DNA of 59,494 nt from Candidatus Woesearchaeota archaeon (lineage in GTDB: Archaea > Nanobdellota > Nanobdellia > Woesearchaeales > UBA9642), in the NCBI GenBank assembly GCA_016928115.1, contig JAFGLI010000006.1:1-59494 (forward strand), given 5' to 3'. The stretch's first letter is position 1. Each line of letters starts with the position of its first letter. A model generated the notes under the pieces. That model saw only the letters and a program-made list of their open reading frames with translations, was not told the origin of the DNA and searched no databases. Of the stretch, positions 39,516 to 45,351 are shown in pieces. The position numbers and the translations under genes are program-made.

Positions 39516-39659
39516 ATACTTACATTAATTATTGAATAATATAAACATTTCGATAAGGCAGAATAAAATTGAATATAATTGTTATTATGTGTTTTTCTAC
39601 AAGAAAAATGCCGAAGCGAAGCATAAATACAGTATGAAGCAGGAGACGGTTTTAACTGA

Positions 39660-40028
39660 TTAAATAAAACTCATATAAATAAGCCATGCGCCAAGTAGAA
39701 TTAAGAAGATGGCACTAAGCCATTGTTTCTTTTTGAATCTCTGCGCTTGCTTATGTATAATCCCGGGAAAGCCTATTTTTGAAATACCTTTAAGTAAAGT
39801 TGACCAACCTAAAATAGTAATTACTACTTCCCAGCTTACAACCCAGACATTATGCAAAATTATGGTGACCAGTCCCATCAAGAAAGTAATATAACCGGTA
39901 GATATAACAAATGCTTTATCGTCAGTCATCTCTATAGTCCTACCTAATTGTTTTGTTATGATGAACAAAGAACCAAAAACAATAAAGAAACTGCCCCAAA
40001 GCCTTGCGAAAAAAATTGTGAGTTCCAT
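39660..40028 (-). CDS. hypothetical four-TM membrane protein
   Basis: The 122 residues contain about four hydrophobic segments (8-25, 42-60, 65-78 and 103-120), with WGSFFIVFGSLFIITKQLGRTIEM and GWSTLLKGISKIGFPG as linkers. The organisation resembles small integral membrane proteins of unknown role common in Patescibacteria and DPANN archaea. No catalytic motif is present. It is transcribed alone, divergently from the TA pair. Confidence 0.6.
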   Translation of the reverse strand: MELTIFFARLWGSFFIVFGSLFIITKQLGRTIEMTDDKAFVISTGYITFLMGLVTIILHNVWVVSWEVVITILGWSTLLKGISKIGFPGIIHKQAQRFKKKQWLSAIFLILLGAWLIYMSFI

Positions 40029-40161
40029 AGTTTTTATTTAATGATTAAAGTATATAATGTTTTCGGTTAAAAAGGCTTAGAGTAATATTGCACTTAATTC
40101 CTGTCATATTTATTTTTAGAGCTGAACTAAATCCATTGAACTGAGAAAAACGAAAGCTTTA

Positions 40162-40218: not shown

Positions 40219-40461
40219 ATGGTACAAGCTATTGTGAACTTAGGAGAACGTGAAGATAGATTATTGACTATAGTTAAAGGTAAGTTTGGATTGAAAAATA
40301 AATCTGAAGCTGTTAATTTTGTAATAGATCAATATGGTGATGAACTTCTTGAACCTGAACTTAGACCTGAGTATAAAGAAGAATTATTAAAAATAGACAA
40401 AGGAAAATTCAAAAGGTTTAATAGTATTAATGATTTAAGAAAGGAAATAGAAAATGTATAG
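40219..40461 (+). CDS. antitoxin, RHH/DUF2683-like
   Basis: The 80 residues start MVQAIVNLGEREDRLLTIVKGKFGLKNKSEAVNFVIDQYGDELL, a ribbon-helix-helix-type domain resembling DUF2683 antitoxins. A charged tail (YKEELLKIDKGKFKRFNSINDLRKEIENV) should wrap the toxin. Its stop overlaps the toxin start by 8 bases. The strong palindrome upstream fits autoregulation. Confidence 0.8.
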   Translation: MVQAIVNLGEREDRLLTIVKGKFGLKNKSEAVNFVIDQYGDELLEPELRPEYKEELLKIDKGKFKRFNSINDLRKEIENV

Positions 40462-40735
40462 TTGGAAAAGAAGTGAAAAGTTAATCAAAATTCTAAAGAA
40501 GTTGTTTAAGAAAGATAAGAGAAGATATGAAACTACGCTTAATAAGATTAATGAAATTATCAGCAGTGAGAACCCAAATCGATATAAAAATTTGTGTTAT
40601 GATCTTAAAGAATTTAAGGGAGTTCATATCGATTCTCATTTTGTTCTCACCTTCAAAGTAGATGAAAATAATAAAATAATTAAATTTGAAGATCTACAGC
40701 ATCATGATGTGATCTACAGAAGGAAAAAGAAATAA
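40454..40735 (+). CDS. RelE/ParE-type toxin
   Basis: The 93 residues follow the RelE plan: YSWKRSEKLIKILKKLFKKDKRRYETTLNKINEII, NPNRYKNLCYDLKEFKGVHIDSHFVLTFKVDENN, and EDLQHHDVIYRRKKK. The HxDSHFVLTF and QHHDVIY segments are typical of archaeal RelE toxins that cut mRNA on the ribosome. It overlaps the antitoxin gene by 8 bases. Unlike the remnant at 20.86 kb, this module looks complete. Confidence 0.85.
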   Translation: MYSWKRSEKLIKILKKLFKKDKRRYETTLNKINEIISSENPNRYKNLCYDLKEFKGVHIDSHFVLTFKVDENNKIIKFEDLQHHDVIYRRKKK

Positions 40736-43556: not shown

Positions 43557-43753
43557 GAGGGAGTTTAATTGTTGTTATATTTCCTGTAAGGCTGAATTTT
43601 AGTGCAACGTTCCGAAGGGAAATTTCAGAGTTAAGTTTTCACGATAATAAATAACGACCGCAGAAGACTATATCATGAAAATCAGAGATTTTCAGGATGC
43701 CAAAAATGTTCCATTTTTGAGCATGTCCGTTAGGACTGAGGGGGAGTTCGATT
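43557..43753. repeat. hairpin-rich block bracketed by GAGGG..AGTT repeats
   Basis: GAGGGAGTTTAATT (43557-43570) and GAGGGGGAGTTCGATT (43738-43753) are imperfect direct repeats around a non-coding block. Inside are TGAAAATC/GATTTTCA (43676-43683/43687-43694) and CAAAAATG/CATTTTTG (43701-43708/43712-43719), the second closed by GGATGC/GCATGTCC. The segment CATTTTTGAGCAT recurs at 52271. No ORF is present. Confidence 0.65.
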
Positions 43754-43767
43754 AAATATAAAATTAA

Positions 43768-44016
43768 TCACTTTCTTTTCTTATTTTTAAGAAATCGTCT
43801 AATTAAATATACAGGAGATATTATGATTAATGAAACAAAAAATGAAATTATAATGGGTACTATCATTTCTAATCCCTGCCAGTTTCCCCACATACCCACA
43901 TTAATTGATCCTTTGTAAAATATACCTAAGAATATAAAAAACCATAATAATATTATTAAAATTATATCTAAACGATTGTATGCTTTTTTTAGATATGTTT
44001 TTATTTCATTTAACAT
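43768..44016 (-). CDS. small two-TM membrane protein
   Basis: The track start at 44025 lies upstream of the predicted transcription start; the ATG at 44016 (MLNEIKTYLKKAYNRLD) fits a near-leaderless mRNA. The ~82 residues have two membrane segments (about 17-34 and 50-72) and a basic tail (RRFLKNKKRK). It lies between inverted copies of GGGGGAGTTC (43742-43749 and 44080-44090), inside a repeat-rich stretch, so it may be cargo of that region. Function unknown. Confidence 0.55.
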   Translation of the reverse strand: MLNEIKTYLKKAYNRLDIILIILLWFFIFLGIFYKGSINVGMWGNWQGLEMIVPIIISFFVSLIIISPVYLIRRFLKNKKRK

Positions 44017-44037
44017 TTTAAACATTTAGTATTCATT

Positions 44038-44079: not shown

Positions 44080-44354
44080 GAACTCCCCCCCTTTGCTTCT
44101 TCCATAAAAATCAAGATTTTTAGGGTCCCAGAAATCTTTGATTTCTGAAGATAACGAAGGCACCTATCTAAAAGATTCGAGGTTTGCCGACGGAGGAGAC
44201 AGTAAGAAAATTTTGGCTAATCGGTGTTATATGACCGACCCATACGAAGTATGGGGAGGGTAAGTCGCGAACATTAAAATTTCTTTTTGTAATTTTAACC
44301 ATAAGGTTGTGAGCGATTTCATATAACAATCTATATGCGAAAAAGGGGGAATTC
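44080..44354 (+). ncRNA. candidate structured RNA of unknown class beside xerA
   Basis: About 275 non-coding bases are closed by GAACTCCCCCC...TTTGC at the 5' side and GCGAAAAAGGGGGAATTC at the 3' side. Inside, by eye: AAAAATC/GATTTTT, CAGAAATC/GATTTCTG, CCGA/TCGG, CGGT/ACCG, CCCATAC/GTATGGG (44239-44245/44249-44255), TAAAATT/AATTTTA, AACC/GGTT, and a long-range 9-bp GTTATATGA/TCATATAAC (44226-44234/44319-44327). The TATA box upstream has correct spacing and GGGGTTTTT follows the 3' end. It lacks the RNase P landmarks I looked for. The strand is chosen from promoter position only. Confidence 0.55.
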
Positions 44355-44538: not shown

Positions 44539-45351
44539 ATGGCAGTTGATGTAATTTATAATATGAAGAGGGAAATGCTTAGGAGAAAGCTATCGCCAAA
44601 AACAGTAAAGACATATCTTCAGTATGTTAAGTTATTTCTTTTAGCTAATAAAGATAAGGCTCCAAAAGAGTTCTCAAAAAAAGATGTTCGTGAATTTCTT
44701 TATAAGATGGAAGAGAAAAATGTTTCGGGAAGCACGCTTAATGTTGCACATAATGCACTAAGATTTATGATGATTGATGTATTGCATAAAGCGTGCTATC
44801 TAAAGATTCGCTATGCTAAAACACCTGTCCGAAAACCAGAATATTTAACAAAAAAAGAAATTAAAAAGATTTTAAATGTAATTACCAATAAAAAACACAA
44901 ACTCCTTGTTTCTCTGATGTACGGAGCAGGCCTTAGAGTAGGAGAAGTGACAAGATTAAAAGTATCTGATTTTTCATTTGAAGAAAATATTGGTTGGGTG
45001 AGAGCTGGAAAGGGGAACAAAGACAGGCCTTTTATTATTCCTCAAAAAATCAAAGAAGAAATAAAAAAACTATGTGAACAAGAAAGAACATGGCTTTTTC
45101 CGGGAAGAAAAGGGGCACTGACTATTAAATCAGTACAGGTAATGGTTGAAAAAGCCGGAAAGAAAGCAAAAATCAAAAAACACATTCATCCACACATGTT
45201 CAGGCACTCGTTTACAACACATTTGCTCGAATCTGGGATAGATGTAACATCAGTACAAAGTCTTTTAGGGCATATTAGACCAGAAACAACTCTTGGATAT
45301 TCACATACATTAAGACCGAAAATGATAGCGATAAAAAGCCCCCTAGACTAG
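44539..45351 (+). CDS. xerA: tyrosine recombinase XerA-like
   Basis: The 270 residues have an N-terminal SAM-like core-binding domain (MKREMLRRKLSPKTVKTYLQYVKLFL) and a catalytic domain. Catalytic residues are visible: Arg in GAGLRVGEVTRL, Lys in AGKGNKDRPFI, HxxR in HPHMFRHSFTTHLL, His in LLGHIRPETT and the nucleophile Tyr in LGYSHT. Length and motifs fit archaeal XerA, which resolves chromosome dimers at dif. The ~1 kb of repeats and structured sequence upstream also allows an integrase-type role. Confidence 0.9.
   Translation: MAVDVIYNMKREMLRRKLSPKTVKTYLQYVKLFLLANKDKAPKEFSKKDVREFLYKMEEKNVSGSTLNVAHNALRFMMIDVLHKACYLKIRYAKTPVRKPEYLTKKEIKKILNVITNKKHKLLVSLMYGAGLRVGEVTRLKVSDFSFEENIGWVRAGKGNKDRPFIIPQKIKEEIKKLCEQERTWLFPGRKGALTIKSVQVMVEKAGKKAKIKKHIHPHMFRHSFTTHLLESGIDVTSVQSLLGHIRPETTLGYSHTLRPKMIAIKSPLD

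Follow-up and report, generated by a model that had tools for sequence, protein, structure and literature searches.

Organization of the locus

The window analysed here is a stretch of 59,494 nucleotides which constitutes contig C13 of the draft genome (773,797 bases, 91.5% complete) of a DPANN archaeon, Candidatus Woesearchaeota archaeon. On the plus strand it encodes a tyrosine recombinase of 270 aa (44539-45351), preceded by a region (44080-44354) that was free of open reading frames of at least 60 aa, the sole frame being one of 53 aa on the minus strand. A first-pass annotation had read this region as a candidate structured RNA of ~275 nt. The local hairpins and the 9-bp helix on which it drew are real: the strands of the helix, GTTATATGA (44226-44234) and TCATATAAC (44319-44327), were both found and showed perfect complementarity, and the region folded as RNA with a z-score of -4.0, better than 200 out of 200 dinucleotide shuffles. 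A TATA box and a T-run were also found as strings. The strings of the proposed outer closing stem, GAACTCCCCCC (44080-44090) and GGGGGAATTC (44345-44354), do pair with one mismatch, but the stem lacks conservation. In G047 and G012, the closest relatives, the same site lies beside the recombinase gene with different flanks and the outer stem is missing, so that it was rejected as the closing helix of one RNA.

Screening against Rfam left the region without a known RNA family. No covariance model matched there, so every Rfam family, those of RNase P and SRP included, was rejected as its identity. The RNase P RNA model (RF00373) found the genome's copy elsewhere (G000:C23:8815-9131, 157.7 bits), and the only match of archaeal SRP RNA (RF01857) in the window was at 655-928 (106.4 bits).

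Recombination sites and cassettes in the window

In a DNA search of related genomes the two halves of the region found their homologues separately, in genomes of other families that differed from one half to the other. Positions 44153-44220 were 87% identical to a sequence on contig C30 of G055, with the homology stopping exactly at a TAA (44220), while positions 44218-44265 matched G041 and G009. In G087 the homologue of 44153-44220 was joined to an attI-like site. What had been taken for one RNA gene is thus a composite of two cassette pieces and two recombination sites. The first piece is the 3' end of a cassette A (44153-44220, plus strand). At the breakpoint lies a short dif-like junction, S2 (44211-44236, plus strand; TTTTGGCTAA-TCGGTG-TTATATGACC). 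The second piece is cassette B (44227-44326, plus strand), which is 100 bp long, contains no ORF and has complementary ends, an architecture that was also found in ORF-less cassettes of G041, G009, G083 and G157.

The 9-bp helix is the pair of ends of cassette B and is here called P1 (44226-44327, plus strand). It covaries in homologues, where GTTAGGTGA pairs with TCACCTAAC, GTTAAGTCG with CGACTTAAC, and further combinations occur. Near the cassette start a conserved hairpin, CCCATACGAAGTATGGG (44239-44255, plus strand), is followed by GGAGGG. Copies of this hairpin were present in G041 (two), G009 and G161, where the 26 bases around it differ at no more than 3 positions, and its arms CCCATA/CCCCTA compensate between copies. 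As a search that tolerated 3 mismatches recovered the hairpin from just 4 of 193 genomes, it is no family marker by itself. Further inside, a helix P2 (44265-44316, plus strand) is formed by TCGC (44265-44268) and GCGA (44313-44316); it is short here and reaches 9-12 bp in relatives. The interior of ORF-less cassettes showed no conservation between genomes.

The left boundary of cassette A and the site S1 proposed for it (43559-43584, plus strand; GGGAGTTTAA-TTGTTG-TTATATTTCC), which was recognised by its arm-spacer-arm pattern only, are tentative because the ends of cassette A are not complementary. Cassette A might carry as cargo an ORF of 85 aa (43768-44025, minus strand) for a probable small membrane protein, which showed no Pfam match. 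The interval between S1 and S2 also holds a dispersed double-hairpin repeat (44103-44147, plus strand), similar copies of which occur at unrelated loci in many relatives and account for many of the other matches in the DNA search. This repeat, of the form xAAAATC..GATTTTxAGGxxxCCAGAAATC..GATTTCTG, was seen in the window at 43674-43725 as well as at 44103-44147 and at loci L005, L007, L008 and L010; within the order it lies in many intergenic regions, near cassettes and elsewhere. A different motif, (A/T)xTGCAACG(A/T)T(G)CCG(A/T)AGGxxAAA, was observed near cassette starts in several genomes (window 43600-43618; L003, L006, L037, L073) and may represent a second type of end module.

The window contains a second, isolated cassette (39585-40097, plus strand). 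Its ends carry the same motifs, with ACAGTATGAAGCAG at 39629-39642 and GAGTAATATTGCACTTAA at 40080-40097, and it is flanked by site-like sequences at 39569-39594 and 40088-40113. It shared 86% DNA identity over 471 nt with a cassette of G050, and the homology breaks exactly at the terminal TAA. On the 5' side the homology begins at the AGTATGA motif, the first ~45 bp being different. Its cargo, a 122-aa ORF for a probable membrane protein (39660-40028, minus strand), was 91.8% identical to the G050 counterpart, and TopoVI-B of that genome was 61% identical to the TopoVI-B of the window. The match to G050 is good evidence for movement of such cassettes as units. Close by, positions 40219-40735 of the window encode an antitoxin-like protein (DUF2683, below cut-off) and a partner gene, both homologous to a gene pair that travels in cassettes of the G041 array described below.

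The attI-like site upstream of the recombinase gene

The second recombination site of the region is attI-like (TTTCATATAA-CAATCT-ATATGCGAAA; 44317-44342, plus strand), lies ~200 bp upstream of the recombinase gene and overlaps the end of cassette B. Its leave-one-out motif score was 27.7 bits, compared with a maximum of 12.8 bits in 600 shuffled upstream sequences. Among the 30 genes examined from the recombinase clade described below, 18 (that of the window and 17 others) had this motif at a distance of 177-274 bp, with the consensus TTG.ATATAA-C..T.T-ATAT.CGAA. and leave-one-out scores of 10-33 bits against the same shuffled maximum. No attI-like site was found for the other 12 genes in the original set of sites; G125 and G172 had further candidates, and in some others an operon lies between site and gene. 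The same motif exceeded the shuffled maximum in 2 of 16 canonical XerA genes (22.9 and 13.4 bits), which would fit an origin of the docking site from dif. Both S2 and the attI-like site have the arm-6 bp-arm layout of XerA/dif sites.

In pairwise comparisons of relatives, the sequences to the integrase side of the TAA were 63-88% identical. Across the TAA, on the cassette side, 7 of 8 comparable pairs were at shuffled background, the exception being G129/G083, and in two other pairs one of the contigs starts only 3 or 5 nt to the left of the TAA. Contig starts within 2.5 kb upstream were more frequent for plus-strand clade genes (15 of 26) than for canonical genes (11 of 47; p = 0.005). This excess would be expected of a repetitive or variable upstream side, although in draft assemblies it is weak evidence alone.

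Other features were observed upstream of these and related genes. In G004, G055 and G183 (L048, L090, L092) an apparent toxin-antitoxin-like pair directly precedes the recombinase gene, in the case of G004 separating it from a docking-site-like sequence. A direct repeat, CACTGGACA(CA)CTGGACA, was found upstream of the recombinase genes at eight loci (L046, L047, L049, L050, L052, L053, L069, L071). It mostly precedes the gene by about 50-160 bp, often with a TATA-like box immediately downstream of the repeat, and looks like an operator. It was absent at the genes of G000, G047, G012 and G009 and present at genes of G035 and G019 outside the clade. The latter two recombinases had been considered to be of the same type because of this shared promoter repeat, and were rejected since the tree places both elsewhere. 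Near-perfect dif-like palindromes, e.g. TTCGCATAA-TCAACA-TTATGCGAA, were seen ~75 bp upstream of canonical xerA in G016 and G030 (L055, L067).

Phylogeny and distribution of the recombinase

The recombinase showed a Pfam Phage_integrase match of 129.7 bits. With the NCBIfam equivalog XerA_Arch (NF040815) it scored 196.9 bits, below the cut-off of 220, while its G041 homologue reached 225.3 bits. A profile search of 193 genomes of the order recovered 46 genes with at least 341 bits and none other above 296 bits; genes of this clade were present in 46 of the 193 genomes, and 24 of these genomes had at least one further XerA-type match. The clade was supported with 99/99 in one tree and 99 in a second, as sister to archaeal XerA. 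IntI sequences formed a separate clade (SH-aLRT 100) outside of which the window recombinase and its relatives fell. The IntI-specific additional domain was absent in all 30 clade members checked. Accordingly, the distance between the GKGxKDR and RHS motifs was 41-64 aa in 30 of 30 members, compared with 101-104 aa in IntI, and IntI4 (2a3v) aligned to the recombinase in two pieces around a gap. We conclude that the enzyme most likely evolved from the ordinary chromosome-resolving XerA and not from the known integron integrase. The tyrosine recombinase beside the region, named XerA in the first-pass annotation, is thus not the housekeeping XerA; it belongs to a separate, horizontally moving clade.

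Compared with its counterparts in G012 and G047, two genomes from other families, the window recombinase was 80-81% identical, whereas TopoVI-B of these genomes, encoded on other contigs, was 59-60% identical to that of the window. The recombinase gene thus appears to move between lineages. Six named DPANN sequences were also observed inside the clade, one of them from an Aenigmatarchaeota MAG (L193), which suggests that the clade may have spread beyond the order. Among the matches listed from viral contigs and plasmids there were only distant tyrosine recombinases, at most ~36% identical.

Cassette arrays and end structure in related genomes

The G041 homologue of the window region is one of eight cassettes that lie end to end over 5.5 kb, up to a recombinase gene of the same clade. 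These cassettes start with TTAxxxxx (one with TTG) and end with the complement of their start, and the junctions between them form hairpins of 113-166 nt. The array therefore combines at least two cassettes, attC-type sites and complementary ends; the window holds one resolved cassette and part of another. Cargo in G041 included a DUF2683 antitoxin-like protein with its partner, a deaminase and a sugar epimerase/reductase, and one cassette of 141 bp had no ORF.

In many cassettes the 5' end follows the order P1, hairpin, often AGTATGACGCA, then P2, and the 3' end the order P2', then GAGTAATATT or TT, then P1'. P2 was made of different sequences in each of 22 curated cassettes. The ends of these 22 cassettes paired with their own partner at 4.55 of 5 variable positions compared with 2.03 when swapped, and 0 of 10,000 permutations were as high, a result that is inflated by the fact that part of the set was found via complementary ends. 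Arm pairs were counted on curated ends since MAFFT misaligned the short arms. The 3' pattern GAGTAATATT-N5-TAA occurred about 107 times in the 193 genomes, compared with about 30 occurrences of the N6 spacing, whose chance-level matches served as control, and about 27 of the reversed pattern. Among 36 GAGTAATATT-N5-TAA ends taken without selection for complementarity, 9 had an exact 8-nt complement upstream, while swapped ends gave a mean of 2.3 and a maximum of 6 in 200 shuffles. Automated searches for generic end pairs did not find cassettes clearly above noise in this AT-rich DNA, and TAAYN6TATAT was present in the window's own genome at a chance-level count.

A possible recombination platform and alternative explanations

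From this organization we consider it very probable that the XerA-derived recombinase runs an integron-like system and that the region is its platform for recombination; most likely, the region consists of the docking site plus a gene-less cassette of a gene-capture system in this DPANN archaeon. The proposed cassette integrase would take up small DNA cassettes and release them again at dif-like sites, which consist of two arms around a spacer of 5-6 bp, sometimes replaced by a long hairpin. The complementarity of the cassette ends is explained by excision as a circle, where both ends meet as the arms of a single site, and the recombinase would join this arm-spacer-arm site of the circle to the docking site (44317-44342). 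Cassette B would have docked there in this way, and together with S2 and the end of the next cassette would make up the apparent structured RNA. Neither P2 nor the end hairpins are needed for a double-stranded dif reaction, which points to a site folded as single strand or to a structure acting in a transcript. P2 and the hairpin suggest, by analogy to bacterial attC, that the site might also fold as a single strand. While the anatomy, the conserved position of the docking site, the covarying ends, the exact breakpoints of homology, the horizontal spread and the separate ancestry of the enzyme were read from the sequences, its part in the reaction and the importance of a single-stranded fold are inferred. 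The ORF-less cassette B may be transcribed. The earlier suggestion of an integration target, or element-borne structured sequence, of a tyrosine recombinase hence pointed in the right direction, though not to one stable RNA gene.

The region could alternatively belong to an ordinary cluster of integron-type attC sites served by IntI in trans, with the XerA-like gene as a bystander. Most known archaeal integrons are indeed clusters without IntI (PMC9668308), and the long junction hairpins of G041 resemble attC in layout. However, the recombinase forms a clade of its own with the motif at comparable distances upstream, relatives share sequence only on the recombinase side of the crossover, and the short 6-bp junctions are dif-like and not attC-like; we regard service by IntI as improbable. 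One stable RNA gene of ~275 nt, be it a diverged RNase P, SRP or a new family, would account for the fold, the local hairpins and the lack of an ORF. Yet RNase P and SRP RNAs are encoded elsewhere, and the separate homologies of the two halves, the unconserved outer stem and above all the homology breakpoints already contradict such a gene, which makes it highly implausible.

More room has to be given, at the level of a serious minority possibility, to an explanation in which the platform stands and the ORF-less cassettes carry a small structured RNA or a promoter, their selected function being expression. The conservation of P2 and the hairpin exceeds the requirements of a double-stranded site, and gene-less cassettes of bacteria can show promoter activity (PMC6557892, PMC11014356). 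This kind of cargo is difficult to reconcile with the unconserved interiors of these cassettes, and since the same end structure surrounds protein-coding cassettes, it marks cassette ends and not one RNA. On balance we also favour, with less assurance than the platform itself, the view that integron-like capture had a second origin, from the archaeal XerA/dif system in DPANN archaea, and that the plain dif-like and hairpin attC-like junctions still present in the arrays represent possible steps from dif to attC.

Comparison with known systems

Archaeal integrons with IntI, together with clusters lacking it, were described in 2022, Nanoarchaeota included (Ghaly et al. 2022, PMC9668308). A search of the open-access literature, with subscription papers and preprints outside its scope, yielded no description of a XerA-type cassette integrase or of the end motif found here. 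Archaeal integrons are known mostly as arrays without a recognisable integrase. If our interpretation is correct, a XerA-derived recombinase beside its docking site would be the missing enzyme for one large group of them, and cassette capture would have evolved more than once. The sites would then offer a natural series from dif-like to attC-like and a test bed for the origin of integrons, and the system would account for the exchange of toxin-antitoxin and other small genes among archaea with small genomes.

Like integrons with their IntI, attI and attC, the system has a recombinase gene beside a docking site and small cassettes in tandem whose ends unite as one site in the circle; some arrays have hairpin junctions, some cassettes lack an ORF, and the distribution is patchy. 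In contrast to integrons, the enzyme is of the XerA type, some junctions are plain dif-like with a spacer of 5-6 bp, and the cassette ends have the extra helix P2 and the conserved motifs AGTATGACGCA and GAGTAATATT. An integron-like way of working is a well-supported proposal, but the system does not belong to the classical integrons, since its enzyme lacks the stretch specific to IntI and falls outside the IntI clade. With XerA/dif of P. abyssi, where dif is ATTGGATATAA-TCGGCC-TTATATCTAAA (PMC2958812), it shares a related enzyme and the arm-6 bp-arm sites. S2 and this dif both have the spacer start TCGG and the arm TTATAT, and the attI-like site resembles dif as well. There, however, dif is single and located near the replication terminus, whereas the present system has multiple sites, cassettes that are mobile and a recombinase gene that spreads horizontally. 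The dif modules of Acinetobacter plasmids (pdif, PMC6449649) are likewise mobile gene modules between Xer-type sites; they depend on the XerC/XerD of the host, while the archaeal arrays have a dedicated recombinase gene and docking site next to them and structured cassette ends.
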